Position numbers and translations under genes: made by a program
Shown here: piece by piece, positions 5,270 to 51,975 of the stretch
Position numbering within the stretch: position 1 is the first letter of the stretch
How the letters are laid out: each line of letters starts with the position of its first letter
The notes under the pieces: model-generated
Databases searched by the model: none
Seen by the model: the letters and a program-made list of their open reading frames with translations, nothing else
Told to the model about the DNA's origin: nothing
Source of the DNA: Punctularia strigosozonata HHB-11173 SS5
Taxonomy: Eukaryota; Basidiomycota; Agaricomycetes; Corticiales; Punctulariaceae
Length of the DNA: 64,000 nucleotides
Direction of reading: 5' to 3'
Assembly (NCBI RefSeq): GCF_000264995.1
Contig: NW_006767441.1
Span: 1,500,370 to 1,564,369 of the forward strand

Positions 5270-8200
5270 ATGCTCAAGCTCTCCCGGATGGGACCGTCAG
5301 TGTCTTCCCTCTTCCTTCGTAGAAGATCGCCGCACGGCAGCCCCGACGCTGCCGGCCAACCCCCGTCGTCGCCGACGTCCCCGCCGCGGCTCCCAGAGGC
5401 GTCTTTCCAGCACGGCCTGACCCTGTCCTCGACCCTCACCCCGGGCGCATCGCCGCTGCTTATGCCCGGGGCCTACCGCTCCGGCTCGCCCTCGCGCGGT
5501 CCGCTGGGCGCCCCGCGTTTTTCTGAAGGCAGCTTTGCCACCGGCCAGCCGCCCGCCTCCCCGCTTCTGCAGATACCGGGGACGTACCCTCTGACGCCCG
5601 ATACCGGCCCCGGGCCCGCCTCTCCCCTCTCGTCGTATTCTCCAGGCGCCCCCGCCTCTACCACTACCACTACCTCCTCCTCCTCCTCCGCCCCGTCACA
5701 GCACCAACCTAATAATAGATCGAGTTCTTCGCCGTTCTCCCCCGGCCCGGCGCCTCTCTCGGCCTATCGAGAAGCGATGCTTTCCCCGGGGCTCGGAGAA
5801 TACGCGACGGCGCCGTCGACCCCGGAAGAACAGGCGATGGGCGCGTCGACGGAGCCCCCGTTAGACGCCTATCCGTTTCCGAACGCGGACGCCGCCGCCG
5901 CGGCGAATCCGCCGGCCGACTTTGATATGTACGACGACGACACGCTGAACACGCTCGAGAAGATATGGCTCTTTTCCAGGAGCGAGGCGACGTTTCATCG
6001 GTACGTTAGCACCACGGTCCTCGGACCAACTTTTTTTTCTTCTCGATACCCCCTCCCCCGTGCCGGCGCATGCCGAAATCTATAAAAAAAACTACGGTTT
6101 TTCCACTGTATACGATCTGTCTCGGTCCCATTTTCACGTATATGGCTCTAACGTCGTGAGAAATACAGGGTCTTTATCGTGCATTCTCTGCCGGATTTTC
6201 TGGACGACGTGACGCCGACGGAAGCCGTCGATTATGTGCTGCCGTTAGTCAGCAGTCTGGCTATGGACGAAGGTGATTGTCCCTCCCATTCGCATGAACC
6301 CGCTACATGAGCTACATAGAACTCGCAGAGGACGCGGTGAAGGAGGCTCTGGCCGCCGAATTGGTCCGGATCGCGTGGTGGTTCCTCACGGTAAACGTCT
6401 CCCCTGCTTCACGTATTATCACGCATACGTTTCTTTAAACTGATATTTATCGCACGTCGCTTTTGTTAGCATTGTCAAGTGGTGGATTACGAGCCAGGGG
6501 AGGGCACGGAGAATCCGACGCTGTTGCCGGTGCAGGCCTTCACGCCCATCCTGGGCACCCTGCTCCTCTGCCCCAGCCCCGCCGTGGCTACCTCCTCCCG
6601 ACGGGCCGTCGTCGAGCTCCTCAGCGAAATCCGCAAAGCGGACGAGGGCGAGGTGGAGCCGGGTCTGTTTGGCGAGGAGGAAAGGCATCTGTTTAGGCAG
6701 GAGCTGCTGGAGAGCGTCGTGGTCGGCATGGCGAGGCTCGACGTGTCCGATCGCCCGTCGTCCTCGCATAGCGACGCTCGCGGCCCCGCTCTGCAAACGC
6801 AACCGCAGACGAATCCGTACTTTCCCGACGTGCCCGCCGCTCCCGCCGCCTCTACCCCCGCGTCGCGCTCCGCCCCGGGATCCCCCACGCTTGCGCGGAA
6901 TGCGCAGGGGGTTGGTGGGGAACGAGCGCAGGGTATACCGACGACGGTGGTTACGGATACGGACCCTGCGATGACCGGGCAGGCCCGCGGCGGGTCGCCT
7001 GCGGACGTGAGGATGACGCCGTCGGAGGATCCGGACGATGCGAGCGAACAGGCGGCGATGGGCCGGTTGTCGAGCATGAGCTTGATGGCGGCTGTGACAG
7101 CCAGCGGTGAGTGATTAGCTGCCCGGATCTTGTGCGGTTGGTGCGGGTTGTGGTGACCGAGGGTTACGGCTTTAACAGGGTCCGTGGACGACGACGCGAG
7201 GGCGGAGTTTGTGGGCGAGGTGACGAGGGCGGGACGAGATCCGGTGTACTGGGTGAGACGCGAGGCCTCTTTTGCATTGGGAGCTTTGGCGAAGGTCGTC
7301 CCGTTCGAGATCGTCACCGGGTCATTGGTAAGTCTATTCGCATGTCATCGGAGGAGACGTTTTTCGTCCTGATCTTGTGTGCACGGTATACAGTTGCCTT
7401 TGTTCGAGGCGCTCTGTCACGATCCGACGTGGCATGTGCGCCATTCCGCGCTGTTCGCGTTCCCCGCCATATTGTCCCGGTTGCAGCCCAGGGAACGAAG
7501 GAGCCTCGCGATGGGCATCGTCTTTTCGCTGTCGGCCGACCCGGCACCCGCGGTGCAGTCGGGCGTTCTGGAGGCGCTGGGCGAAGTGATACACTCTTTT
7601 CGCGACGATCCCGGTGGACCGCCGTACGACCTCTTGCGGTTGTTTCTCGGGAGGCCGGAAGATCGAGAGTTTTGGAAGAACCGGATACGGTCGCTCGGAC
7701 TCTCGCCCCAGCCGCAGGCGCCGCCGTCGGACCCGACGTCCCCGTTTGCGGGATCGGGCACGGCGTTTTTCGACGATCCGGCGAGGCCTCTGATATGCGC
7801 GTTCAACTTTCCGGCCGTTACGCTGACCCTGGGAAGGGACCGGTGGCACGAACTGCGCGATTTCTACGCGACTCTGGCGAGGAGCGAGGTCGTCAAGGTC
7901 CGCCGATCGCTCGCCGCCAGCGCGGGAGAAATTGCGAAGATCGTCGGTCCGGAGAACGCTCGGCGGGACGTCCTGCCGATGTGGTTCGAAGCGGTCCGGA
8001 GCGAAGAGGCTGATCTGCGCCTGAGGGCGGTGGAGTGCTTGGGGACGCTGGCGCAATCGCTAGGGCCCACGGAACGGGCGGATTTGCTGGTCTCGCTCCA
8101 GCGGATATGGGTCGATAACCTCCGAGGATGGCGGGAACGCGAGACCGTCGCCGGATCGCTCGACGAGCTCGTGCCGCTGATGGGCGAGAAACCTGGCATA

Positions 8201-8955
8201 TTGCGGTCGCTGTTGTTGAAGGCGCTGCAGGATTCGGTGGCCGCCGTCCGGCAGGCCGCTATCAATATGGTACGCCCGCCCCGGCGACGCTCTCCCCCCA
8301 ATCCGTTCGGACAATCTGACGAATCACGTATATTTACCAGGTTCCCAAGTTTTGCGTGGCGTTTGGTAACCGGCCGACCGTTATACGTGACATCCATGAA
8401 GATATCAACCGGCTTGCCCGTGCGCCGTCCTACCGGTACCGGATGACGTATGTTGATGTTCTAGACACCCATGCTTCTGGTCTGGGGATCTGATGTGTTG
8501 GATTCCCTTTCCTAGGTTTGTTGCTTGCAGGCAGGCGTTGGTACTTGCGCCGGGCGGCGAGTCGACTCTGGCCGACAGTCACTTCTGGAAGCTCATCGGT
8601 CAGCTGGCAGATGACCAGATCACCAACGTCCGCATCGGTGTGGCGCGCTTATTGGGGATCATTTGCGGTAAGAAAGAGAAACACGCGGCGCGTTCCGCTC
8701 CTTGTGGTGGCACAGTTGACTGACGACCGAAAAAAAAAACATGACTCTCCCTCAGATCGTTTCTTCTCCGACGCCTCCAAAATGCCATCGCATATCATGG
8801 ACATCCTCGTCCGCGTCGCGCACGACGAGAGCAAAGAGGTGCAGTCTTACGTCTCCGTGCACTGGGATCGGCCGCGGAACCCGGTTCCGAGCGACCTCGC
8901 CACCTTCTCCCGCCCGCCGCCCACCCCGTCGGTGACGTCAGCTGCAGATGCGTAG
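5270..8955 (+). CDS. HEAT/ARM-repeat protein, PP4R1-like phosphatase regulatory subunit
   Basis: The first 200 residues are a Ser/Pro-rich low-complexity region starting MLKLSRMGPSV. A helical-repeat region follows: VFIVHSLPDFLDDVTPTEAV, then a disordered linker with SPADVRMTPSEDPDD, then many HEAT-like units such as YWVRREASFALGALAKVVPF, WHVRHSALFAFPAILSRL and VQSGVLEALGEVIHSF. Protein phosphatase 4 regulatory subunit 1 has this plan and acts as a scaffold for the PP4 catalytic subunit. About ten exons can be spliced with GT-AG introns, for example 8273-8340, with AINM joined to VPKFCVAFGNRP, and near 8670-8755, with GIIC joined to DRFFSDASKMP. The 3' end is less sure: the frame stops at 8955, but the last stretch could instead splice at about 8932 to an acceptor near 8982 and run further. 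Confidence 0.75.
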
Positions 8956-12257: not shown

Positions 12258-15200
12258 ATGGCGACGAGAGGACAACCGCTTTCTATCGAGAGCTTGCTAG
12301 AAAAGCAGAAGGCGGAGAAAGAAGCTGCGGCAAAGGTACGTTCCCTCCTTCCACGATTGCTCAAGCTCATGTCGCGTCTACGCAACATAGCCAAAATTCC
12401 TATCGAAAGAGGAACGTGCCAAACTCGCGATAGCCAAACGTGCCCAGGAGATTAAGGAAGAAAAGGAAAGGGAGGAGCAGGCGCGACGGCAGCGCGAAGC
12501 ACTCGAGCGTGAGGCGGAGGAGCTGCGCAGGCGGGAAAGAGACAGGGAGTATGGATCGAGGTATGGCAGCGGGAACGGTGGGCGATGTGCGTTCTGGATA
12601 TTTCTCTCCGGTGACGGCCATGATTCTCATCACTGCTTGTACTATACAGACGAGGACCGTGATCGCGACCGCGACCGCGACCGCCACGGCCGGGACAGAG
12701 ACGACAGGTATGGCCGGCGTGATGATCGACGAGATAGCAGACGCCCACCTCCACCTCCACCTGCAGCTCAGGATGAGCGCAAATATCAAGGTGTACCTAC
12801 GGGGCCTCGTGCCGACCGAAGCGGCAAGCCATCTGACTCCTCTGCACCGTCCTCTTCTACCCACTCCCCGGTCCCTGGTGGCTCGAATGGCAATGGCAAC
12901 GAAGAATATACGCCTTCCATGACGGAATCCGAAATTAGCGCTATACGGTCGCGTTACCTCGGCGTCGACAAGAAGAAGCGGAAGATTCGCAAGATGAACG
13001 ACCGCAAATTCGTTTTCGACTGGGATGAGGGCGACGACACCTTGTCGGCTTCTGGTCCGCAACCCCTAGAGCTGCAGAATCGTGCTGGGGTCATGTTTGG
13101 GAGGGGACACCTTGCCGGTATGGACGACGGCGGAGGGACGGGCGCCGGGGCGGGCACAAACGGCAAGGTGGATGCGAGTGCGGATGCGCTGGAGAGGAGG
13201 AGGGCGGCGAAAGGCGCGGCGGACGAGAGGCATTGGTCAGAGAAGAAGCTGGAGGAGATGAGAGAGCGTGATTGGCGTATCTTCCGGGAGGACTTCAGCA
13301 TCGCCGCGAGAGGTGGTCAAATCCCGCACCCGCTCCGGTCATGGGAGGAATCAGATATACCAGCTCAAATACTGGAAATCGTCGATTCGATCGGTTACAA
13401 GGAACCGTCACCTATCCAACGGCAGGCTATTCCTATTGGTCTGCAGAACCGCGATGTTATTGGCATTGCTGAGACTGGTGAGTGCAGCGTCACAATATCA
13501 TCTTATTGATAGCACTCATGGTTCATCAAAGGCTCCGGAAAGACCGCGGCGTTTGTTATCCCTATGCTCGCATTCATATCCAAGCTACCTGCATTCACCG
13601 AAGAAAACCGGCATCTGGGTCCTTATGCGTTGATTATGGCGCCGACGCGCGAGTTGGCGCAACAGATCGAGTCGGAGGCCCGCAAATTTGCCACACCACT
13701 CGGGTACAAATGTGTCTCGATTGTCGGAGGTGTAAGTGCATCGTGCGGAGATGCATCCGCTTGGATCACTAATCTCTCATTGTTCTGTTTTCCGTAGCGT
13801 GCAGTCGAAGAGCAACAGTTCAACCTCCGGGAAGGAGCAGAAATCATCATCGCCACGCCCGGTCGTCTGAAGGACGTTCTTGAACGCCATGTTCTCGTCC
13901 TTTCCCAATGCCGCTACGTCGTCATGGACGAAGCCGACCGCATGGTGAACCTGGGTTTCGAAGCCGACCTCTTATTCATCCTCGACAAACTGCCCTCCGA
14001 AGCCATGGCCGGCGAGGAGTCCACGACCGCGATGGAGGTCGATGAAGAGGGCGGGACCAACGTTGTTGTGACGAAGGGTAGGACTCGGGTAACGACGTTA
14101 TTCAGTGCCACGATGCCGCCGCCTGTCGAGCGAATCGCGAAGAAATACCTCAGGAAGCCCGCGGTGGTGACGATTGGTGAGGCCGGTAGAGCCGTGGATA
14201 CGGTTGAGCAGCGGGTCGAATTTGTCAGCGGAGACGAAAAGAAGAAGCAGAAGATGCTGGAGATTCTCAACAGCAACCAGTATGCGCCACCGATCATCGT
14301 ATTCGTCAACCAGAAGAAGACGGCGGACATGGTGGCGAAAGACCTCCAACGCGCTGGCGTAAGTCCTTTCTTACCGGCTATTGTTTTGTTTGCTTATTCG
14401 TCACCCTAGTGGAGCGCGGCAACCCTACATTCCGGCAAGAACCAAGAACAGCGAGAGGCGGCGCTGCAATCACTACGTGACGGTCACGCCGACATCCTAG
14501 TCGCCACGGACTTGGCTGGTCGTGGTATCGACGTGCCCGATGTCACGCTCGTCATCAACTACCAGATGGCCAACACTATCGAAGCATACGTTCATCGTAT
14601 TGGTGAGTTCCCTTTTTGCATCTTATTTTCCTCTCTTGCTCTCTGCCGTGTGCGTTTTGCGCCGGGACCTGACAGCCGGTTGTGCACGCCTTTCTTCCTT
14701 GTCGTTCCGTCGCTGCAGTTCAGCGTTCCCTTCATACGTTGTGTACCCCGAGACCTCCCGGTGTCCGGCGGGGTGTTCGCGACGCGCGTTACCCACGACC
14801 GTCGTGCAGCCTTGCTATTCGTACCCTAATCCCTTCTTCACCTTCTCGCCGCGCGGTTGCCGGAGCCATCGGTCCCCGGCTCAGCATTCGATTTTCGAAA
14901 CTCTCTTTCTCTTCTCCGTGCTCCTGTTAGCCGTGCCTTTGGCTTTCTTTCTTTTACATCCGGTCTCGGGGCTCCATGCCCTAGACGTCTATCCGTCAAG
15001 GTCTTCTACGCGTACAAGGATTTACTATTGATATGCACGACCAACTTACGCTCAAGTATCGTTGCGACGGACGCTCACTTTCATTTTCGACAGGTCGTAC
15101 TGGACGTGCGGGCAAGCAAGGCACGGCGATCACGTTCCTGACCAATGAGGATGCCGAGGTTATGTACGTCATTTCCCTTATCACCGCCTTTTCTTTCACT

Positions 15201-15464: not shown

Positions 15465-17292
15465 GCCTAATGCCTTCGGATACTCGTGACGACGGCTGCG
15501 ATGTGAGTCGTAGGCTATAATCTTGCTTTCTGTGCAGAATGATATCATATGCTGCTCGCGGTTGAGCATCGCAGAATCACCGACGATTCGGTTTTCCAGG
15601 CGGAAACTCGACAGGGCATCGGCAGCCTGGACCGTCGGGTGCCATCTCGGTTACTCAAATGGTGGTTTAGCTTCAACCTTGAGCTCCACCATTCTGTGAA
15701 CCCCCCACAATTCCACAGGAATGCATGCTGTGCGTACTGAACGATTGCGGTTGATGAAACCTAGGCACCTGGCGGTGCTCCGGGGTCGCAACCGAAACGC
15801 GGGCCTAAACCATCTCTATATCCATATTGGCCCTATCTTGAGCGTCCGCTGCTCGGCAGGAGTCCGCTCCATATGGCCCTCAGGAAGGGAGCCGTGCCAA
15901 TGGATCCAGTATATAAGGCGCGCCGCGATGCCGTCGCGTGCCGCTCAGGCCGGATGCGCGCCGAGGATCCCGATTCGCATCCCGGTGCGGCAGCTTATAC
16001 ATCGTCAACAATGCTCCCGTATTGCGATTGGTGTAAGGTGTGGTGCAGCGTGTAAGGTGGATGATGAACTTTATGAAACTTTGGGTGAGACTGGGAAGGA
16101 GTCGAGGGCGGATTGGCGGCTTGGCATGTAACGCAAAGCTGTGGCCGAAAGCGGAGGGAACCTTGCGTGAAAGTGCGGGCTGGAAAGCCTTACAACGCCA
16201 CCCGGTGTCAGCGTGCTGAGCCAAACGTCCATATCTTCCGAGCCGTGCACGTTTGCTACGCTACGAGATGCTACTGGGCTACCTGATATAGAGGACGATG
16301 GTCATACTCGAAACCACGACGAAAGATGGACGAGAGTGATCGTGAATGGTAGGACATCGAGATATGAGCTCTTGGCGCCTTCGAAACCGCTTCGGTCGGT
16401 CTTTCCTGCGACGTGCGGTGCTTCTCGGTGTGGATCACACAAAGACCGGTAAACGACAGCCGTGGTTGACGGACGGTATGAATGCTCGGCGCTGAGCCCT
16501 TCAATCCACCGAGAAGTGTGTTGATTCACATCTTGAGCTGCTTGGCGTTGCACTAACAGGGAACTATGTATCGAGGGTCTTACGACTTGGAGTCGCATCT
16601 GGACCAATTTGATTGGTCGGGGACCATGAGAAGGAGGGCGCATCGTGTTACAACGGGTTCTGAATTCGGATCGGGCCTCGGCGGTGTACCATGGCATTTT
16701 CCCTGCGTGCAGACGAGTTGGTGACCGGTTCCGTGTCAAGTTGACCAGCCCCAAAACGTTCCTTTGCGTGGTCAGCGGGTCAAATGGACGATAAAATGAC
16801 GATGAGCGGGTGGCATATTTACGTGAAATACTTAATGGGCGAGGCCTGCAAGCAGAGTGTATATGGTCCCAGGAATAGTATTCATTGATGATTGCGCAGT
16901 CTGGGGTCAGGTGGCAGTCAGCGTCATTGTGGGGGAATGTCAGCGCCTCTGGGTCCCAGGATCAGCAGCATCGAGACACCCGAGGCGTTATTGCCGCCCA
17001 AAGTCCGGGATATTGTTGCAGAGAAATCGCGTCGAACAATAATACTATGTCGAAGTGCGACTGAAAGTGAACGGGCGTCGCAAAAGAGATTATTCGTCGG
17101 AGGAGGTAGACGGAGGAGGGTGATGTGATCGGGGGGATGACGATGGCGCCGGGTGGGTGCAAGCTGAGCGGCCAAGGTGCCGAAGATCTCCGGTCCGATG
17201 CGGCCAACGGGCGGGATCAGTGAGCGCGAGCCCCCGTCGCTGATGGATAACTCCCTCCTCCTCCAACGAGCCCCTCCTCACCGACCCCCACG
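15465..17292. other. Long gene-free region between PRP28 and the kinase gene
   Basis: About 1.8 kb without a gene I can support. Frames on both strands are short, overlap each other and lack family motifs or consistent splice chains. The last 100 bases before the kinase start are C-rich and probably promoter. No tRNA or repeat was recognised. Confidence 0.45.
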
Positions 17293-20200
17293 ATGCTCTC
17301 CGCGCGGCCCATGCAGCCCGTCGTCCCCGACGACGTCGACACCGACGTCGCCGATCGCCCGCCGCAGCCGTCGCCCTCGACCGACATGCTCGCCCCCCAT
17401 GGCCACAGTGCCTCACAGGTACGCTTCCCCTCGCCGCACCGCCCGGCTCCAGCCCAACTCATTCGTCGATCTACATCTACATCTTCCGCGTTCCCAATTA
17501 CATCTACGTCCCCGTCCACATCCAGAACGGCGCCGCAAACAGCACCCCGCCCCGGAACCGCCGCACGTCTTTCTTCCGCGGCACGCCCAAGCCCTCCGCG
17601 CCGGCCACCCCGCTGCAGCCCGGCACGCCCACCAGCGAGCACCCGCCGGCCTCCAGCAGCTCGCGCTTCTCCTTCGTGAGCCGCAAGCCGAGCTTCCAGA
17701 TCCGCTCGTCCTCGCCGACGCCTGACGATCCCAACAACAATACCGCCACGGCCGTAAATGGCAACGGCAACAACCCCGCCAGCCCGCCAGGCAAGGGCAA
17801 GCACGCCCCCGGGCACGGTCCGCTGCACGACCTCAAGCGGTTCCTGAACCACCACCTTCCCCATCACAATAATCACCACCACCTGGAAGGCGCATCGGGC
17901 GCCTCCTCGTCTATGCCGTCCGGAGGCTCCACCCGCCCTCTCAACACCGCCGCGCACTCCCCGCCCGAAGAGCCGTACGAGCTCCCCGCGAACCAGCGCC
18001 GGGGCGAGGACTTCGACAAGCACACCGACCTGCCGCACCCGAACGGGTCCGTCAAGGGCCGCTTCTTCCGGCGCAAGGACAAGGAAGCGGAGAGCACCAA
18101 ATCGGGGCAGGCGTCCCCGACGAAGGCGCATCCGCGCTCGGCGCAGGGCACGCCCTCCCCGCCGCGCCCGGGTACGCCCGATCCGTCGACGGCGAGCGGG
18201 ACGCAGACGCAGGGCACCGTCAGGCGCGTCGACTCGCACTCCACGAGCGTCACGCAGTACACGTATACCTCGACCGCGACGGACGCGAGCGAGTCGTCTA
18301 CCGCCGCGCACACGATGGAGGAGAGCACGACGGGCCCGTCCGAAGCGCATTCGCTGACGCCGTCCCAACGTCCGTTGCCCAAGTCGCGCAAAAACTCGGG
18401 CCACAAGGAAAAGGACAAGGACGGGTCGCACGCGCCCATCGTGTCCCTGCACGATGCCACGCACGCTCATATTGGCAAGAAGTATGGCAAGTGGGGGCGC
18501 GTCCTCGGCAGCGGCGCGGGCGGCACCGTCAGGTTGATCAAGAGCTCGACGAAGATGGGCGGCGCGACCTATGCTGTGAAGGAGTTTAGACCGAAGAGGC
18601 CTGGGGAGAGCGAGAAAGAGTACCAGAAGAAGTTGACGGCCGAGTTCTGCGTGGGGAGCGTGCTCAAGCATCGCAATGTGATAAGAACGGTGGATATCGT
18701 GCAGGATCACGGGCATTACTACGAGGTGAGGGTTTATTTTATCGCTGATCATCTGCGCGCCATGCATTGAGATCGAATGACGCTGACGATGGATATTTTC
18801 GTGCCGCAGGTCATGGAGTACGCGCCTTACGACCTATTCTCGGTCGTGATGTCGGGCAAAATGTGCCGGCCCGAGATCTACTGCGTCTTCCGCCAGATCT
18901 GCGACGGCGTGCACTACCTGCACTCGATCGGGCTCGCGCACCGCGACCTCAAGCTGGACAACTGCGTGATGACGACGGACAACGTCGTGAAGCTCATCGA
19001 CTTTGGCACCGCGACGCTGTTCCACTATCCCGGCTCGTCGGACCCGGATAGCGTGACGCTCGCGACGGGCGTGGTCGGCAGCGACCCGTACCTCGCCCCG
19101 GAGGTGTTGGAGGATAAGCCGTACGACCCGAGGAAGACGGACGTGTGGAGCGTGGCTATCATTTTTATGTGTATGGTGCTGAGGCGGTTCCCGTGGACGA
19201 TCCCGGATCGGAAGACGGACGCGAGTTTCAGGGCGTTTGTCAGCGCGCACCCGGATCTGGCCAAGCCGAAGAAGGAGCGGAGGAAGAAGAAGAGCATAGA
19301 AGCGGGCGAAAGCAAGCCAGAAGAGAAGACGGCGCAACAGGCGGAGGCGCAAAAGAAAGTGGAGGGAGTGAAGGTCACGGACTTCGTGGACCAGCCGGAG
19401 CCGGTCAACGGCGACGCGAAGGAGTCGAGAGCGGGGCAGCGCCAGAGTTCCTCTTCTTCTGGAAGCAGTAGTGGCTCGAGTTCCAGCGAGGGACACGGGC
19501 AACAACAAAAAGAGCCTCAAGAGCCTCAGCAACCGCCGCAACCACATTCGCACACAAACGGCAAGGGTCCCTCGCAGAGCTACGACGAAGTCCGGCGGCG
19601 TGAACGTATCCGGCGCTCGCTGCAGCATGCTGCGGCGACGGGCAAGTCGACCGCGACACTCCCGGCGCTGCTGTCGCTCGACGAGATAGGCGGCGCGGGT
19701 GGCGCGCTGATGCTGCATACGAGCGACTCTCCGTCGTCGCTCAATGTCGGCGAGGACAGGACGATGGACCCCAGTGTACTCCGATTCGGGCGACCCGCCG
19801 CCAGCACGGAGTCGTTGCCCGCGTCGCCGCTGCTCAGCCCAGCTGCGGGCTACTCGATGATGCCCATGACCGACGAGCCCGCGCAGATATCGAGGACGCA
19901 GGGCGAGGAGGGCGAGGGGTGGTACGGAGAGGACGTGCAGACGCCGAAGATGAAGCCCGTCATGCCCCCTCGCGTCCGCGCGAGCACTTTCCACGGCCCG
20001 CTGAGCCCCGTCGCGGACAAGGAGAAAGAGCAGGACGAAGCGGTCTCGCCCAACGGCAAGCGCTCGCGATCGCCGGTCGTGCGCAGGGAACAGCCGAAGC
20101 CGAAGGAGAACGCGAGGGAGAAGAAGGCCTCCGATGCGGGCTCGACGTCTACGGGCGCGACGATGCACGCGTCGAAGACGCCGACGGCGCCGCGCCGGAA

Positions 20201-20582
20201 GCGCGTGGACTCGAGCGCGTCCGTCGCCACCTTCCACGGGGGAGGATCGGAGTCGGTGTTCCGCCTGCTGCCGCGTGAGTCGCGGCCCGCGATCCGGCGG
20301 ATGATGCACATCGACCCGTCCGCGCGGTGCACGCTCGACGATCTGCTGGGCTCGTTGAGCGGCGTCGCGTGCAACGTGTGCGGTGCTACGGGCGGGGAGG
20401 AGGGCTGTCGCTGCCCGAAGTCGAGGGAGGAAGACGAGGAGGAGGACGAGGAGGAGGAAGAGGAGGGCCTGGACGAGTGGTTGACGGGCATCGTGCCGTG
20501 TTCGGAGCCCGGGGTGCAGCCGAACCACGTCCACATCAAGGTTGCGGTGGAGGAAAAGGCGCATAAAAGGAGGTTCTTCTAG
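17293..20582 (+). CDS. Ser/Thr protein kinase of the HAL4/HAL5 (NPR-like) fungal group
   Basis: Three exons (17293-17418, 17526-18725, 18810-20582) give 1032 residues. A 390-residue Ser/Thr/Pro- and His-rich N-terminus leads into the kinase domain. Visible are the glycine loop [10 protein letters not shown], the ATP-site Lys in [23 protein letters not shown] and YLAPEVL, so it should be active. After [15 protein letters not shown] the C-lobe is split by roughly 300 low-complexity residues before [20 protein letters not shown] and LDDLL complete the fold. The tail has Cys pairs ([15 protein letters not shown]), an acidic run and a basic end (EKAHKRRFF). HAL4/HAL5 kinases of yeast stabilise nutrient and potassium transporters at the plasma membrane; that role is inferred from the family. 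Confidence 0.88.
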
Positions 20583-21631: not shown

Positions 21632-23759
21632 TTAGGCAAGCACTGACCGTTTGTGTACCCGTGTCTTCCTTGGAGCCAGGTTTGTGCTCAAATGGTTCAG
21701 CTCAGCCACAATATTCTTGAAACTCGGGCGTTCAGTAGGATCGATTTCCCAACACCGATGCAACAGCTTCCACGTGTCGTCTGCTATGTGCGGCAACCGC
21801 ATCGGTCGTATGCCGTCGTCGATCAGATCACGCAACTCGTCCATAGTAAGCTTGGGGACGGAGCGCCTCCACATAATCAGCGCCTATTCAAGGACGACGT
21901 TATTACGCACACTCGAACTCTCTCGGTCGCAAACCTTGCCTCGAAGCATGCACAACCAAAGAGCCATGCGTCGGTCGCGGGGCTCCAAGGCTCTAAGGGA
22001 GATGCGATGCAATCCATATTCGAGAGCGAACCGTCCTGCATATATGTCGATGACCATGCACTATCCAGTTTTATATGTCCTTGGGCGTCCAATAGGATTC
22101 CGCACTGGTGATGATTACGTTCAGCTGATCATCCCAACATGAACCACAAAGCAGCTCACACAACGGAAGTTCTTGTGAATAACACCCTGCGAATGCAAGG
22201 ATTGAATGGATTGGGCGACTTCGTGCAACTTCGTAGCACGTGTCAGAGATGACGATGTGCGCGGAGGCGAGTACGCACTTGCTGATATACCGATGCTGTC
22301 TGATGTCGTGTTATCCATGCCAGCATGTTTCCGTTCTGCGTTCGAGGAGCTGCTGTCATAAATAGCTTCTGTGGGCCATCGGCGTCGACGTAATTGACAT
22401 CGATGCTCTCAGCATGAGAATGGACGGACCCGCGCCATGTAAGAATGGCACAATAGAAGGTCTAGGAGTCAAGGAATGAGATCTAGTCCGCAGGTCTATC
22501 AAGAGTGTCATCACCTCCGCACGGCGAACAGTCGATGGCTCGTTATCCCAAATAACTTCAGGAGCATTGCAATAGTAGGTCGATTCGACCCCGTCGAAGG
22601 CGCGCTCGGGGAGCGCCACTGATGATCGACTAGCTTGATACCAAATCTCGATCAAGGCACCCAGGACGACATGACTGGGCATTGTGACGTCCGCAGGGAA
22701 AAGTAGGAACAGCACCATCTAGTGTGGCAGTTTTGAGAAAGGACGAAGGGAGCCTGCAAATAGAGACATACATTATATAATGACCATATATTAGCCTCCA
22801 CTTCAGCTGCGCGAATGTACAGAATCGGTGAAAGGGGGAAGATAGCGAATCGGCTATCCAACGGAAGCGAAGCTAGGAAATCTGCGGTGTCGCGAGAAAA
22901 CGCTACAGACAGCCACGTCAGCAGGGGAAGGGGGCGAACACAATATTCGGGGCATACAAAACGCCATAGGCTCTTGCAGTTGAATCCGGAGTTCGTTGAG
23001 AGCCTCCACAAGCGATGGACTGTCTGCGGCGAGTAAATCCAAGGAACCAAACCTTGCTTCCAAACTGACGTCGAGTTTGTGGAAGGAGACAAGACGAAGA
23101 CGGCATGGCTCTCCTAATAGCTTGATGAACGCGACAAGGTAGCATGTGGCAACAGCTGCATTCCACGGGTGATCATCTCTGACGAGCATGAACGGGTAAC
23201 AATTCGTGAGTACATTGATGGCATGATGAATGCCTAGGCTCAGCACTTACCGTACGGTTTCAGAGAGTTTCTTGCACAATTCCCAAAACAGTTGTCTGAG
23301 GTTAACAGTGTCCAAACTGTTATAGTAGAGGCCATCGCCTGCGGACGAGCCAAATAGGGCAAACAGCAGGTGAGGGAGGCAATGAGGACAAGACATCTTT
23401 TGCATATAGTCCAGGATTTTCGAACATTGTGGTCGCCGCCAGTCTCGAAGGTATTTCAGAAACGAGTCTGCGTTGGCTTTGCAATCCATATTCTCCGAGG
23501 TGAGCTTAGCGCGCGTCGAATAGGAGATGAGAATACCAGCGTAGGAATTGATGAAGCGGACGAGCAATTTGCGAAGGAAGTTTGCTACAGCAGCAGTTGG
23601 ACCCTGTCCGAGACGCTCCCCCGTCCCAGCCAACACCTTCATGATGGCTTCCCCTCCTCTGCTAATCGCGCTGCCGAGCACACGCCCTGCGCCCGTGAGG
23701 TTGGTTCTCGTGCTGTCGGTCGTAGAGATGATTTCGAGCTCAAATTTCGAACCTTGCAT
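21632..23759 (-). CDS. Pseudokinase with novel N-terminal module
   Basis: Eight exons (23251-23759, 22958-23178, 22772-22902, 22515-22718, 22279-22461, 22160-22228, 21940-22104, 21632-21883) join in frame to 577 residues. Residues 1-240 form a module also found in the gene at 50049-51975: TDSTRTNLTGAGRVLGSAIS, SRGGEA, then MSCPHCLPHLLFAL and KLLGEPCRLRLVSF. The rest is a kinase fold: hinge region KLFMTAAPRTQNGNMLAWIT, helix LHEVAQSIQSLHSQGVIH, and C-lobe helices ending CWEIDPTERPSFKNI, which resembles tyrosine-kinase-like enzymes. All catalytic motifs are replaced: HRDLKPEN reads HKNFRCCG and DFG reads SAW (KLDSAW). It should not phosphorylate. Intron 7 has a GC donor (gcaagg). The start is uncertain, because a stretch like the paralogue's leader lies just upstream in another frame. 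Role unknown; signalling or cell-death scaffolding is possible. Confidence 0.8.
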
Positions 23760-24165
23760 CGTCCAACCACGCCGGTGCTCCTGTCAGTCTGATCCGGTGT
23801 TCCTTCGCCTCATTCTCCGACGTAGACGAAATACTCGCATTCATGGAGGTGGCCCAATCTCAAAGGAGCCAAGCGGTGATAGACAGAGGGAAAACCAGTG
23901 CTGCAATTTTGAGGTTCATGATGGGGTATGGAGAGGCTATGTATCTGTGCGACTGTAGTGCTCGACCGTGAGTTTCAATCCCGTCGCCGCGCTGAGCGGA
24001 GGAGGAGAACAAGCTATTGAGCGCGTGACCGTGACATATGCGCGGAAGCAGTGGCAGTCACTGACGCGTTATCCTGCGCGCGAGGCGTTACGCATAACGC
24101 GTTCCTGTATCTGTGTTTGCTGCCACCGACGCGTTCGTAGGACCGCATAACCGCGCTTGAACGCC
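23760..24165. promoter_or_regulatory. Divergent region between the pseudokinase and PRI2
   Basis: About 400 bases hold both promoters. On the minus strand at about 23765-23844 an ATG-led stretch with EHRIRLTGAPAWL resembles DHRIRAILTGIPSHL at the start of the 51975 gene, so part of this region may be old or current coding sequence of the pseudokinase gene. Confidence 0.45.
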
Positions 24166-26019
24166 ATGTTTTCCGCTCGCGAGAGGAGGAATTACGGTCA
24201 GGTGGAGGTTCATAACGACCCCAAGCGCAGATACCCATACAGGCTCAACTTGTGAGCAAATCCTCTCCGTCGAGCTTTCGCGCTCATCGCCTCTGAATAC
24301 GTAGCTACGACCGCCCGCCATTGGAGGACGTGACGATTGAAGAGTTCGAGACATTCGCTCTCGACAGACTTCGCGTCCTTGCTGGGATAGAATCCTCGTT
24401 CGTACGCAATCGGACGTACGATGAACTCAAGAGCGTCACGAGCGCGCACTGTAAGAAGTATTTGCCTTTGGCGGCCAACACGGCGAAGTCGGTTGACACG
24501 GATGCGGAGCGGAGAAAAGATCACATCGGACACTTCGTGTTAAGGCTGGCGTTCTGCAGATCGTGAGCGTCTCTGCGTTAGGTTAGACGCGGTTTTGACG
24601 GGAGGTTATGTTGATATAGGGAGGAGCTACGAAGACGGTTCTTGAAGGCTGAGACCACGCTCTTCAGAGTTCGCTTCGACGAAGATGACAGTAAAGAACG
24701 CGAGAGTTTTTTGAAAACCAAGGAGATGAACTGGATTGACGTAAGCTGCAATTCCGCGTATAACGCATTCTTGCCCATACGTTCTACCCCGCTGCAGGTC
24801 ACCGACGAGGAGAAGTCAATGTACAGGGATCAGCTGATGGCTGCTTGCGACTTCACAAAGGAGAAACTCGCGGCGGAGCGTTTTGTAAAGGTCAGTCACG
24901 CTTTGCTATCCCTCCAACCCAATCGGTCTCACTCAAGCCCGCCATGAAAGGTACGATGGACTCGCGTCCCCGATTTGGTGGAGAAGCGGCGGGTATTCCT
25001 CAAGCAGGGAATGGCATGGGTCCCCAGTTCTCAGCAGTCTAGCATCGTGTTCCAAGCTTTCCAGTCTTCGCTCGAGGAAGCTCTCAAAGTACGCTGCTTA
25101 CCCAGACTCCACAAAGGGACACTAACAACTTGCAACTTTATATAGGCGACCTCGAAACACTTCTCCCGCTTGGATGAAGACACGCGTATCGTGCCCCTCC
25201 TCGACAACTTGTCGCGCGGCTTCCTCGCCGGTGTTCCCTCGGAATGGTCCGACGCGACCTCAAACCCATCTGGAGACGAGATCAAGGCCGAGATGGTTGA
25301 CGACCTCGCAAGGAAATATTTCCCTATGTGCATGCGGCACTTGCACGATGAGCTCAAGAAGGACAGGCATCTCAAGCACTTCGGACGTTTGCAGTATGGG
25401 CTGTTCCTGAAGGTATGGGTCGCAAGGCCAATCAGAAACTGCTACATGCTGAAGACTTGTCCTCAGGTACTCGGGTTGTCCATAGACGAGGCCATCACGT
25501 TCTGGCGGCGGTCCTTCAGTAACATGACGGACGACAAGTTTAACAAAGAGTACAAATATAACATCAGGCACTCCTACGGTCTCGAGGGCAAACGCGCTAA
25601 CTACCCCGCCAAAAGGTAGCCGGTGGTTGTCGCATAACCCGCGACCGACGTGATACTGATCGATTCACCACAGTTGCCTCCAAATTCTCCAATCCCAACC
25701 CTCCTCCCAAGATTCGCACGGATGTCCGTACCGGCACTTCTCCCCGGACAACCTTCAGGCGGCACTCCTCGCTGCCTACCAGACCCAAGGCCTGTCGACA
25801 TCCGACATGCCTGAGATCATGCATGCCGTCAAGTCGGGCCACTATCACGTCGCGTGCACGCGCGTATTCGAGATAACGCATGCAGCGGTAGGCATCAAGA
25901 AGGGAGAAGGTGTTGGTGGTGGCGAAAGCGTAACGCATCCCAACGAGTACGCGGCACGAAGCAGGGAGCTGGAGAAAGCTAAGGCGAAGGAGGCAGAGGA
26001 GATCATGCTAGTAGAGTGA
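24166..26019 (+). CDS. PRI2: DNA primase large subunit
   Basis: PRI2 works with the small primase subunit and DNA polymerase alpha to make RNA-DNA primers at replication forks. Six to eight exons give about 500 residues. The first exon reads MFSAREERR-like basic sequence to KRRYPYRLNL and joins YDRPPLEDVTIEEFETFALD, the classic primase-large N-terminus. The iron-sulphur domain has four candidate Cys ligands: FPMCMRHLH, AKSCLQILQ, HGCPYRHF and HVACTRVFE. The stretches RLQYGLFLKVLGLSIDEAI and RHSYGLEGKRANY are diagnostic. It ends with a charged helix (EYAARSRELEKAKAKEAEE). The start codon is divergent from the pseudokinase gene. Confidence 0.94.
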
Positions 26020-32352: not shown

Positions 32353-33737
32353 ATGGCTGCTCGCGATCGGTTGGCCGCTATGCGCGTACGTTGCTGTCAC
32401 TCCTACCTCACCGCTTCGCGCGCGATGGGCGCTAAGGGATGCTGTCTGTAAATCATAGGCCCAAAGGCAGGGAAACAGCTTCCAAGGGCAGAATCCTGCA
32501 ACGATGGCCCAGCAGCAACAACAACCCGCCTACGAAATGACTGGCTTGCATCAACCCGCCCCGGGGCCAACCGTCATCAACGGGAACGGTTCTTTCGCCG
32601 CGGAGAGCGCGCCTGTGGAAGGCCTTGCTGGGTTTCAACAGGAGGTAGGTGGTACTACAGTGGCCACGAAAAATAGAGAATGAACATGGAAGCTTGTAGG
32701 TTGGGAGCATCCAGGACCAGATTCGCGAATTCGAGGCGAACGTCGCGAGGATATCCGAGTTGCACTCGGTCTCGCTGAACGCCATGGATGAGGCTGCAAC
32801 CCGTCAGAATTTGGCGCTTCTAGACGACCAGGTCGCTCAGACGCGAACCCTGAGCAATGCCATCAAGCTGCGAATACAGGCGCTGACAGACAAACCCACG
32901 GCCGGTGTTGACAAGAGGCTGCGTAAGAATCAGGTTCGTACCTTTGATCTTGCACCTTTGGACGATCTTGCTAACCATGATCAACAGCTGACGTTGATCA
33001 GCAATAAATTCAGGGACGCCCTGCAGAACTACCAGAACGTCGAGAGAGATTACCGGAAGCGGTACAAAGAGCGCGTCGAGCGTCAATTCAAAATCGGTAT
33101 GTAGCCGTTTGATACCTCCCTGACGCCTTGTTTGCTGATTGGCCTCCAGTGAAGCCGGATGCGACGGCGGAAGAGGTTGCTGCGGTTGTCAACGACGACT
33201 CCGGCGGACAAAGCCAGATATTCGCCCAAGCAGTGAGTACCATGACCGAAATATCTGAATACGACTTCCTAACTTGTTCCTGTAGCTTGCCAACTCTGAG
33301 CGATGGGGCGAGTCGCGCGCTGCCTATCGAGAAGTGCAGGAGCGACACGAGGAAATCCGTAGGATTGAACAGACTATGGGCGAGCTGGCGCAGCTTTTCA
33401 ACGATGTGAGCACGCTAATCATGACCGAATTGCACTGTTACTTACACTTGTCCTAGATGAGCGTCCTTATCAACCAACAACAAGAGCAAATCGACATTAT
33501 CGAGCAGACGACGGAAGGTGTCTCGAAGGATGCCGAAGCAGGGTATGCTTTGCTTTGCTCAGATAGCCCTGTACGTACTAACTAGCCGTTTGCAGAACCG
33601 AGCAAGTGGAAAAGGCCGTCAAGCACGCGCGGGCAGCCAGGAGGAAACGCTGGATCTGCTTCTGGCTGACATTGCTCCTGCTCGCCATCGTCGCCATCGT
33701 CGTGGCGGTCGTCGTCACCCAAAATACCCATCACTAG
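32353..33737 (+). CDS. Plasma-membrane syntaxin (Sso1/2-type t-SNARE)
   Basis: A complete Qa-SNARE for exocytosis. The first exon is tiny (MAARDRLAAMR). The Gln/Ala-rich N-terminal tail (MAQQQQQPAYEMTGL) leads into the Habc regulatory helices (IQDQIREFEANVARISELHS, NYQNVERDYRKRYKERVERQ) and the SNARE helix (ERHEEIRRIEQTMGELAQLF, then MSVLINQQQEQIDIIEQTTE), a basic border RAARRKRWICFW and one membrane anchor ending VVVTQNTHH. Introns split it into about seven exons. The exon starting at MSVLINQQ and the phase-2 intron after DAEAG match the partial gene at 1-365, so the two are duplicates. Unlike that copy, this one ends about seven residues after its anchor, the normal state for a tail-anchored SNARE. 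Confidence 0.93.
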
Positions 33738-37631: not shown

Positions 37632-38891
37632 ATGGCACAAAAGCTGGCGCCGGAGATACTCAGCGAGATCATCTCCTACATCGGACAGGACGGCCAGAAA
37701 CGAGTCGACACGTTGCGCAACTTGGCCCTGGCCTCTCGAGCGTTGCGCCCGCAGGCACAGGCCGCCATCTTCCGCACCCTGGACATCGACGATCCCCGCA
37801 TCCTGGATGCCATCGCGTCTTCCATCAGCGGATCACCCGTGCTGGGCTCCTACGTGCGCAACCTGCGCCTCAGCTTCAGCTTTCACCGGAGCGGAGACTG
37901 GCCGGAAGGCCTATCGCAGATTTCGGCGCACCTCACAGCCTTGCGCGACGTGAGGATAGAAGGGATGTCGTGGGCCGAACTCGGCGCAAACGCGAGACGA
38001 GCTATTCTTCAGGCCCTCTCACCTGTGTCGTCCCTCGTTTTGCGGAGCTGCGAATTCCCGCACGCGCGATCCGTACTCGACATCGCGCTCGCCTGCCGGA
38101 ACCTCGAATCTCTCAGCGTCCTCTCCCATGCACGGCGGGCGGTGGAGGTCGAACCTAGTAGGACTACCTCTCTGTATCCCATAACCCCATCATTCTCGTC
38201 GCTCAAGCACATCGAACTCGGAACGGATCTTCGGCTCGCGACCGTCGTCAGCGACGCACTGCTCGAATCCACAATGTTCAACCTAACCTCGGTAACGATC
38301 CGTCTATGGTCGATAAAGGAAGGGGACTTGACCTCTATGACCCTGCATCGCCTGTTTGCTCGGCTGACCCTCCGAACGACGTACCTTCACGTGTCGAAGC
38401 GAGCGTGCGATGTGTGCGCCTCGGGCGACAGCACCCCGCCATGGCCATCCGACGATAGATTCCTAACGATGCTGGTACCGAATGCCACCATCGGTAACGA
38501 GGATAAACGCGATACTGCCACCGAGCTCGAGACATGGTTCGGCGACGTCCTGTCCATCGTATATACGCGCGGGGTCCTCCGGATGATGTTGAACTTTGAC
38601 GAGCGCGACGCCCCGTCCGATTCGTGGGACGCGCTCCGCCGGCTCTTGATCCATCCGCGGCTGTCGTCGCTCACTACCGTGCACCTCGACGTCGGGTGGG
38701 CTCCTCCAGAGGACGAATCGTCTGCGTCACGTTCCGACGAAGGTGGGCAGATGGAAGCGAGGATGCGTCGCGACCTCGTCGACCGGCTTTCCGGTCTCAA
38801 CGCGAACCCGACGTATCATGTCAACGCGTGCCCTCCGATGGAGGGGATCTGGTATCGTCCGCTTTGGCCCGATGAACTGGAGGGGCATTGA
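37632..38891 (+). CDS. F-box / leucine-rich protein without N-terminal module
   Basis: A single exon of 419 residues starting MAQKLAPEILSEIISYIGQD, an F-box-like start where the LAPEIL..II pattern would bind Skp1. It is followed by leucine-rich repeats of loose spacing (VRNLRLSFSF, LTALRDVRIEGMSW, VSSLVLRSCEF, LESLSVLSHA, LKHIELGTDLRLATV). F-box proteins recruit targets to SCF ubiquitin ligases; such families are strongly expanded in Agaricomycetes. It aligns along nearly its whole length with the C-terminal part of the gene at 50049-51975 (for example AQAAIFRTLDIDDPRILDAI against AQAAMFRAIDVDKPRILDAV) and runs about 100 residues further. Lack of introns is unusual for this window. The substrate is unknown. 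Confidence 0.8.
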   Translation: MAQKLAPEILSEIISYIGQDGQKRVDTLRNLALASRALRPQAQAAIFRTLDIDDPRILDAIASSISGSPVLGSYVRNLRLSFSFHRSGDWPEGLSQISAHLTALRDVRIEGMSWAELGANARRAILQALSPVSSLVLRSCEFPHARSVLDIALACRNLESLSVLSHARRAVEVEPSRTTSLYPITPSFSSLKHIELGTDLRLATVVSDALLESTMFNLTSVTIRLWSIKEGDLTSMTLHRLFARLTLRTTYLHVSKRACDVCASGDSTPPWPSDDRFLTMLVPNATIGNEDKRDTATELETWFGDVLSIVYTRGVLRMMLNFDERDAPSDSWDALRRLLIHPRLSSLTTVHLDVGWAPPEDESSASRSDEGGQMEARMRRDLVDRLSGLNANPTYHVNACPPMEGIWYRPLWPDELEGH

Positions 38892-50048: not shown

Positions 50049-51975
50049 TCACTTGGCGAACTTCCCACGGGCCCGAACTTGGAGGGTGTCCCCTGTCCCC
50101 AGGGGGTCTGGCCGAACTTCCGGCCGAAAAACTACAGTAGTCAGTTCGGCGCCCCAGCGATCGTCGAATTCTGACGACAGGAGGAAGTTGGATTGATGTA
50201 TGACGGATAGAATATCGTTGAGCCATTCCTTGAACCCGGTAGGGGCCTTGCAGATGGTCATGGGAACCCGGAACGAGACGAACCACAGGCGGTCGACGCG
50301 ACACCCTCCGCTGCAGATCGGTTGGATATCTGGGGTCTGGTGGAGAAAGATTTCTGGAAATATTCTCAAGTGATGATGCAAGGTTATGGGCGCTTTGTTC
50401 TCCTTCATCGTTCCCCACAGACAGATCGTTTTCGGTATGTGAGAGAGCTTCGTCGGGCCGAATAATGCGTCATAGAGGATACTTGCGAGCCGCATATCGC
50501 CTCCGAATTCAATGTGTCGGAGGGAAGGTAGCGAAGGGGTTTGGGAAGCCTGCCTACTCAGCGTTTCGTGCGATCCGACATGCCCCGCCTGCAGTAGTAC
50601 GGAGTTGCGCACGGCGAAGGTTGTCAGGTTCTGACAGGCGAGCATGATGTCGATCAAGCTTTGCGTCCGCGGGAATGAACAGTCTTGCAGCGACAGGATC
50701 GATATCTGGGAGAGGACCCGGAGGATGATTCGCCTGGTATCCGCGTGAAGCTCGGACCACTTCATCCCGCCCAACGACATCCCACGCAGGGTGCCGAGGT
50801 GCGCGAAACACTGTGATAAACTTAGCAACCAGCTTTCCTTACTACCGGTCTCGAGGTCGAGGTGAAGCTCGCGCACGCACGAGCCCAGCTTAGGCGATAG
50901 CTTGACCGAGTGTATGACCGCGTCTAGGATCCGAGGTTTGTCAACGTCTATGGCACGGAACATAGCGGCTTGGGCTAGTTGTTGTAGCTCACGACAGCTT
51001 GATGCCATGTTGCTCAACGTAGCGAGCCGACCTTCTTTATCGAGATCGATATAGGAAATGACTTTTTGGATCGTCTCTGGACTCAGTTCGAGAAGGTGAG
51101 CTCGACCCATCTTCGAGGCGGCAAGTTGGCCTTGGAGCTCACGGAGAGACTCCACAAGCGATAAGCTATTTGCGCTTAATGCGTTCAAGGGATTCAGTCG
51201 TTCTTCCAATGCGTCACGCAGCCCGTAGACCGAGACAAGTTGAGCGCGACATGGTTCCCCCAACACCTTGACGAGAGCGCTAGCGTATCGCGTGGCCAAA
51301 AGGACGTTTCCAAGTATTGGATTAGTTCTGAGAGCAAGATGTTTTAGCGCGACGAGGACAGCCCATGCCTATCAACGCTCACCGTATGGTCATCGTCAGC
51401 TTCTCACATAAATCGTGGAAATGCTGCCTACTTTCACCGAGATCAAGATGACCAGGCGGCGAAGAACTACAGAGGGCGAATTGTATTCCTGGCATGCACA
51501 GGGGACAAGATATGCTCCGTAGATGACGCACAATCTGCGGGAATCGGGGTCGTCCCGTAGCTCGTAGATAAAGCAACAGTTCGTAAGCACCATAAGAGCA
51601 ACGGGCAACGCTTTGTTGGTGTATTTCCCTTCCTTCTGTGAGAAAGGGGGAAGTATGGACTGCACCGTTACAGCTAAGGTGAGGGATGGCACGGATGAGG
51701 AAGTGAGTAAGGAAGCGAGCTACTGCGACGTTCAGTCCACGCCGGAACACTCGCTCTCCGGTTGCCGTTATCAACTTCGTCAAAGCTTGTCCCCCTCTGC
51801 TCATAGCATTCCCAACTACGCGCCCCGCACCGGTGAGATTCGTGATGGTGCTGTCAGTCATAGACAGGGCCTCGAGCTCGAGTTCGATGGACGAACGATC
51901 TTCGAGTTCGGTGGCCAAGTGTGAGGGTATTCCAGTCAATATGGCCCTGATACGGTGATCTTGAGAGGGTAACAT
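50049..51975 (-). CDS. N-terminal module plus F-box / leucine-rich protein
   Basis: Two exons (51383-51975, 50049-51327) give 623 residues. Residues 1-250 are the same module as in the pseudokinase gene: DHRIRAILTGIPSHL, TDSTITNLTGAGRVVGNAMS, ISCPLCMPGIQFAL, KVLGEPCRAQLVSV and SLVESLRELQGQL. The single intron falls at the same residue and phase (R in TMTIR / SETVR) as intron 1 of the pseudokinase gene. From about residue 255 an F-box (LLELSPETIQKVISYI) and leucine-rich stretches follow, homologous to the gene at 37632-38891. After EFDDRWG the similarity stops and about 35 unrelated residues (VVFRPEVRPDPLGTG) lead to the stop, so the C-terminus seems shortened or replaced. Likely an SCF adaptor with an extra regulatory or sensing region; function unknown. 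Confidence 0.78.

Follow-up and report, generated by a model that had tools for sequence, protein, structure and literature searches.

The window analysed here, a stretch of 64,000 nucleotides of Punctularia strigosozonata HHB-11173 SS5 DNA, carries on its minus strand an eight-exon gene whose putative product consists of an N-terminal module, a linker and a kinase domain predicted to be catalytically dead. The same module is found again in a two-exon paralogue, where it precedes an unlike C-terminal domain, and a homologue of the latter domain is encoded by a stand-alone gene without the module (Table 1).

Table 1. Coordinates of the dead-kinase gene, its paralogue and the stand-alone gene in the window
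Feature	Position	Strand	Remarks
Dead-kinase gene	23759 -> 21632	minus	eight-exon chain, exactly 577 residues and stop
Upstream frame	23740..23844	minus	MNASISS...EHRIRLTGAPAWLDDARFEI; frame differs from exon 1; overlaps the ATG of the first-pass annotation; matches paralogue N-terminus
Exon 1	23251..23759	minus	ATG of the first-pass annotation at 23759; first part of N-terminal module, with TDSTRTNLTGAGRVLGSAISRGG; paralogue alignment
Exon 2	22958..23178	minus	module end (LGEPCRLRLVS...SLVEALNELRIQL); paralogue alignment
Exon 3	22772..22902	minus	linker; no Pfam match, no Lys
Exon 4	22515..22718, may reach ~22430	minus	putative degenerate N-lobe, lacking Lys and a Gly-rich loop
Exon 5	22279..22461; 5' end uncertain (22461, 22407 or 22368 by version translated)	minus	beta5, hinge, C-lobe start (KLFMTAAPRTQNGNMLAWI)
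Exon 6	22160..22228	minus	alpha-E and catalytic loop; HRDLKxxN site HKNFRC|CG (22177-22160 and 22104-22099)
Exon 7	21940..22104	minus	DFG site SAW (22062-22054); alpha-F DAWLFG
Intron 7, as in the first-pass annotation	21884..21939	minus	GC-AG (GCAAGG...GAATAG); one of 6 frame-compatible joins
Exon 8	21632..21883	minus	end of C-lobe, CWEIDPTERPSF, stop codon
Paralogue, rebuilt	51975-50049	minus	two exons, 623 residues
Paralogue exon 1	51383..51975	minus	same N-terminal module, open N-terminus
Paralogue exon 2	50049..51327	minus	module end, then unlike C-terminal domain in the same exon
Stand-alone gene	37632..38891	plus	single exon; no module; homologue of the C-terminal domain of the paralogue

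The dead-kinase gene is adjoined by a Ser/Thr kinase gene (17244-20582, plus strand, two open stretches), which is predicted to be active, as HRDLKLDN and DFG are readable, and which matches PF00069 in its second stretch (5.2e-30) and, below the cut-off, in its first (1.8e-06). On the other side of the dead-kinase gene lies a DNA primase large subunit (25146-25616, plus strand; PF04104, 1.1e-38). Housekeeping-type genes identified by Pfam are a PP2A B56 subunit (56970-57962, minus strand) and, on the plus strand, a DEAD-box helicase (13798-14406), a DDX23-like part (12391-13506), a syntaxin (32700-33101) and HEAT repeats (7373-8443).

Exon chain and start of the dead-kinase gene

The first-pass annotation of this DNA had eight exons joining cleanly to 577 residues. 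The length is reproduced exactly, but the clean joining is not, as the exon 4/5 join is ambiguous and the exon 7/8 join needs either a GC donor or an intron of 35 nt. Each of the eight exons has an open frame as used and obtains its best codon score there, a score that penalises stops in other frames, with a small margin for exon 5 (-0.19 vs -0.25). Five of the seven introns are of the GT-AG type with G at position +5, the exceptions being introns 4 and 7. Intron 4 as originally chosen (22514-22462) starts with GTGATG and excises VMTLLIDLRTRSHSLTP, which prolongs the open frame of exon 4; the next 54 bases after the excised part, a short stretch carrying little weight, score -0.08 per codon in the exon 4 frame vs -0.28 in the frame of exon 5 as first annotated. 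Within the stretch searched, 15 stop-free and frame-compatible GT/GC..AG joins are available for exon 4/5. For exon 7/8 there are six, of which five use a GC donor and the remaining one is a GT intron just 35 nt long, and among them the GC-AG intron of Table 1 is the most plausible.

Three versions of the exon 4/5 join, including the original one, and two of the exon 7/8 join were translated, and the 35-nt version of the latter was left out of the Pfam scan. The full chain as first annotated scores 57.5 bits, two alternative pieces from exon 4 onwards score 60.0 and 60.1 bits, and a read-through piece in which X marks the doubtful junction scores 59.8 bits, the pieces being shorter than the full chain. 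In every exon 4/5 version the match begins at position 84 or 85 of the profile, and the scores do not discriminate among these versions. Support for the order and phases of exons 5-8 comes from the uninterrupted kinase C-lobe that they encode together (PF07714, 1.7e-15).

The ATG at which exon 1 was made to begin is probably not the ancestral start. Directly upstream of it another frame reads EHRIRLTGAPAWLDD, which matches DHRIRAILTGIPSHL at the N-terminal end of the paralogue. When the three upstream frames are compared with the first 40 residues of the paralogue, the best one scores 38 (the others 20 and 24), a score reached by 19 of 20000 shuffles. As this upstream frame matches the N-terminus of the paralogue, the original start was probably located further upstream, and either the frame has since changed or the assembly contains an error.

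Kinase domain

Sequence comparison confirms the C-terminal part of the protein as a kinase domain of the tyrosine-kinase-like type, predicted to be catalytically dead. The PF07714 match (E 1.7e-15; 57.5 bits, cut-off 23.1) extends over residues 397-556 and profile positions 84-258 of 258, i.e. the C-lobe only, and PF00069 reaches 29.1 bits, just under its cut-off of 31.7. With an alternative 580-residue chain as the phmmer query, EGFR, let-23, BTK and FGFR4 are the best PDB matches (best 60 of 1350 listed), and the best matches of the C-lobe alone are likewise tyrosine kinases (best 60 of 329 listed). The Pfam families Kdo and Kinase-like were dropped for the C-lobe, as both are below the cut-off.

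In all three alignments listed (EGFR, let-23 and 6mny), the catalytic loop reads HKNFRCCG, where Asn faces the HRD aspartate and Gly faces the loop asparagine. The DFG aspartate faces Ser in two of the three (let-23 and 6mny) and a gap in the alignment with EGFR, and the DFG site as a whole reads SAW against 6mny and is interrupted by a gap in the let-23 alignment. Both replacements previously described for this protein (HRDLKPEN by HKNFRCCG, and DFG by SAW) are present. The C-lobe keeps the histidine of HRD, the alpha-F Asp/Trp/Gly/Glu, CW and RPSF, all of which we take to be structural residues; the same three alignments leave the APE position unclear. As the fold is retained and the chemistry is gone, this pattern suggests a loss of catalysis in a protein on which selection was still acting.

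No N-lobe is recognised by Pfam in four versions of the chain, in exon 4 alone or in a piece comprising exons 3-4. The 146 residues from residue 241 to KLFMT contain neither Lys nor GxGxxG, nor does the whole open frame of exon 4. The VAIK lysine and the Gly-rich loop are absent from the presumed N-lobe stretch, an absence that is defined by the stretch scanned, as the N-lobe itself is unrecognised. The earlier statement that the kinase half keeps its hinge and helices holds from the hinge onward, but not before it, where no N-lobe is recognised in any version.

N-terminal module and its paralogue

A tblastn search with the module within the 64-kb window retrieves one relative, in two pieces (51885-51382 and 51308-51123; E 2.8e-38), from which the paralogue was rebuilt. 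Residues 31-266 of the paralogue align to residues 5-237 of the dead-kinase protein with a local score of 393 (maximum of 54 in 200 shuffles), and the residue is identical at 103 of the 228 aligned codons. Both modules contain the common core TDSTxTNLTGAGRVxGxAxSRGG and SCPxCxP, and the paralogue has an intron at the identical place and phase as intron 1 of the dead-kinase gene. The two copies align without a frame break inside exon 1 from residue 5 on, and most of their differences fall at codon position 3 (0.42/0.33/0.61 for the three positions), which together argue for protein-level constraint on the module for at least part of its history. The pair formed with the stand-alone gene differs much like the module pair (0.47/0.35/0.50), so recent constraint on the dead-kinase copy is not implied.

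From residue ~270 on, and within the same exon, the paralogue continues as a different domain, which matches the stand-alone gene with a score of 485 (maximum of 56 in 200 shuffles); the dead-kinase protein has no such match, as it scores 31 against the same gene, under the shuffle mean of 38.7. Judged by these alignments, the module is common to unlike C-terminal partners. The C-terminal domain of the paralogue may be F-box/LRR-like, a label given by its sequence pattern. With two full-length proteins and three short pieces as queries, Pfam yields no F-box or LRR family at E<=10, in searches whose HMMER filters drop most matches above E 0.1, and the stand-alone gene has no Pfam match. EF-hand (E 0.005 and worse) and MA3 (0.19) were dropped as weak for pieces of the paralogue, as was a myosin fusion match for its second exon (E 1.2).

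When the open frames of at least 25 residues in the window are searched with a profile of both modules, no third copy emerges; the four strong matches all lie in the two genes and the rest have E values of at least 4.7. Beyond the window, an alignment of the two module first exons used as the query gave 39 pattern-matched stretches in viral_contigs and 75 in genome_contigs, 0 of which were confirmed, in collections that are viral, bacterial and archaeal and have little bearing on fungi. The informative new fact of this analysis is the paralogue with another C-terminal domain. A module standing before a dead kinase and, 28 kb away, before another domain would show domain shuffling within one genome stretch, and its occurrence in two genes with unlike domains would give a direct route to the partner of the module.

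Predicted fold of the module

The first exon of the paralogue's module, modelled from a two-sequence alignment with the dead-kinase copy, is predicted to be all-helical with low confidence (mean pLDDT 58.7 in the best of five models, range 42.1-58.7), and one helix of 30 residues spans the Gly-rich block in this model. The model of the second exon of the paralogue is unusable (mean pLDDT 35.5). A Foldseek search with the weak model of module exon 1 returns 78 matches at E<=10 (50 of the 78 listed), none of them at E<=0.001. The module has no significant match in Pfam, no match above the cut-off in NCBIfam and no significant match in the PDB, which contains MLKL and HeLo chains. A PDB profile search with module exon 1 yields only two matches at E<=10, both to alpha-amylase and at chance level (E 1.6 and 1.7). 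Med31 (E 0.09 and 0.22) and, in the NCBIfam search, a phosphatase model (E 0.02; 14.2 bits vs a cut-off of 336) were dropped.

The description of a dead kinase behind a new N-terminal module is borne out, as the dead kinase is present and the module has no significant match in the libraries searched. Kinship of the module with MLKL or HeLo is unsupported by sequence similarity in Pfam, NCBIfam or the PDB and by any significant Foldseek match, which agrees with the earlier caution that no homology to the MLKL bundle was claimed. By these searches, the module is neither shown to be a helical bundle nor barred from being one. Its most hydrophobic 19-residue segments listed (1.47 at residue 177 of the dead-kinase protein and 1.39 at residue 202 of the paralogue) are located in the last part of the module and not at the N-terminus, and the highest value listed for the dead-kinase protein (1.67 at residue 288) falls in the linker.

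Putative function and alternative explanations

As the module occurs with different partner heads, the simplest reading is an adaptor carrying client-binding heads. We assign a probability of roughly 0.45 to an adaptor family with exchangeable C-terminal domains, in which the present member would be a pseudokinase scaffold, possibly decaying. This fungal family, with two copies here, would be characterised by a helical N-terminal module of ~235-265 residues ahead of the exchangeable domain, which in the dead-kinase member would be a tyrosine-kinase-like kinase domain stripped of its catalytic motifs and in the paralogue a domain also occurring as a separate gene. On this view, the module would associate either with a shared partner or with another copy of itself. 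The C-terminal domain, represented here by the preserved dead-kinase C-lobe, would hold a specific client and would not phosphorylate it. What is observed are the two copies of the module, their unlike C-terminal halves and the catalytic losses; from them we infer expression, binding, scaffold function and a lineage-specific family. Against the adaptor reading, frame damage may lie behind the exon 4/5 join and the N-terminus, with the consequence that no protein may be produced; moreover, the N-lobe is not recognised, the APE position is unclear, the module fold comes from the two-sequence model, the codon-position differences are matched in the stand-alone gene pair, and two copies (n = 2) are too few to gauge the frequency of shuffling. 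A more far-reaching and unlikely version is that the module founds an undescribed family of fungal adaptors whose swappable heads (pseudokinase, F-box-like, perhaps others) recruit clients to a helical hub, possibly in non-self recognition.

The dead-kinase copy may be starting to decay, and a pseudogene is a doubtful alternative to the adaptor, though a likelier one than the two below. In this case a once intact module-kinase gene would be decaying, and the odd joins would be debris, as would part or all of the motif losses. It would account for the paralogue N-terminus being matched in another frame upstream of and overlapping the ATG, for exons 7 and 8, whose joining takes a GC donor or else an intron of 35 nt, and for the exon 4/5 region, where none of the joins listed combines a good donor with retention of both PSIVPFLHGAG and SIDVNYVDADGPQ. 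However, the catalytic loss looks selective, as structural residues of the C-lobe are kept, which is not expected of neutral decay, and all eight exons are open and score best in the frame used, with the reservations on that score given above. GC-AG introns, moreover, occur in fungi. If the gene is broken, it would be an example of an exon chain which, needing only to stay open, hides decay.

Errors of sequencing or assembly behind the odd joins of an intact pseudokinase gene are quite improbable. The paralogue and the stand-alone gene are open from start to stop and the problems of the dead-kinase gene are small and local, but at least two separate problems would have to fall within ~2 kb of one gene, with none seen in the two related genes.

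Least probable is an MLKL-like executioner, in which a helical, membrane-acting N-terminal domain is restrained by a pseudokinase switch: the order of module and dead kinase, the predicted helices (the 30-residue one included) and the mention, in a review (PMC12881547), of some fungal HeLo-like domains in proteins with kinase or pseudokinase domains, which are thus already in print, speak for it, but the module has no significant library or Foldseek match (the latter with a weak model), its hydrophobic segments are not N-terminal and the paralogue carries it without a kinase. As the sole relative found joins the module to a non-kinase domain, the module is not tied to a pseudokinase switch, and as it has more than one kind of partner domain, membrane attack under pseudokinase control is thought unlikely. 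The MLKL-like layout proposed in the first-pass annotation is therefore unsupported beyond the order of the parts, and of the membrane- or partner-acting unit proposed there the partner-acting option survives.

Comparison with known systems

Animal and plant MLKL, fungal HeLo/HELL and the MLKL-like N-termini described in basidiomycetes (in a fungal NLR study, PMC9815663) resemble the dead-kinase protein in placing an N-terminal part that is helical, by prediction in the present protein, ahead of a dead kinase. They differ in that the module has no detectable sequence similarity to them, occurs without a kinase in the paralogue and contains no strongly hydrophobic N-terminal helix. A literature search, made without a name for the module, found no paper on it, and absence from print is not claimed.

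FslK are fungi-specific kinases near tyrosine kinases, which are expanded in Agaricomycetes and mostly have complete catalytic domains that are likely active, according to PMC3937382. The present C-lobe, compared with FslK by description only, resembles them in that its best listed PDB matches are tyrosine kinases, but lacks the catalytic motifs which, according to that study, most FslK members retain.

From pseudokinases with a tyrosine-kinase-like C-lobe in general, the protein differs in its unrecognisable N-lobe and in an N-terminal module that has no significant library match. With them, it shares a C-lobe that is kept and the loss of the HRD aspartate, the loop asparagine and the DFG aspartate.
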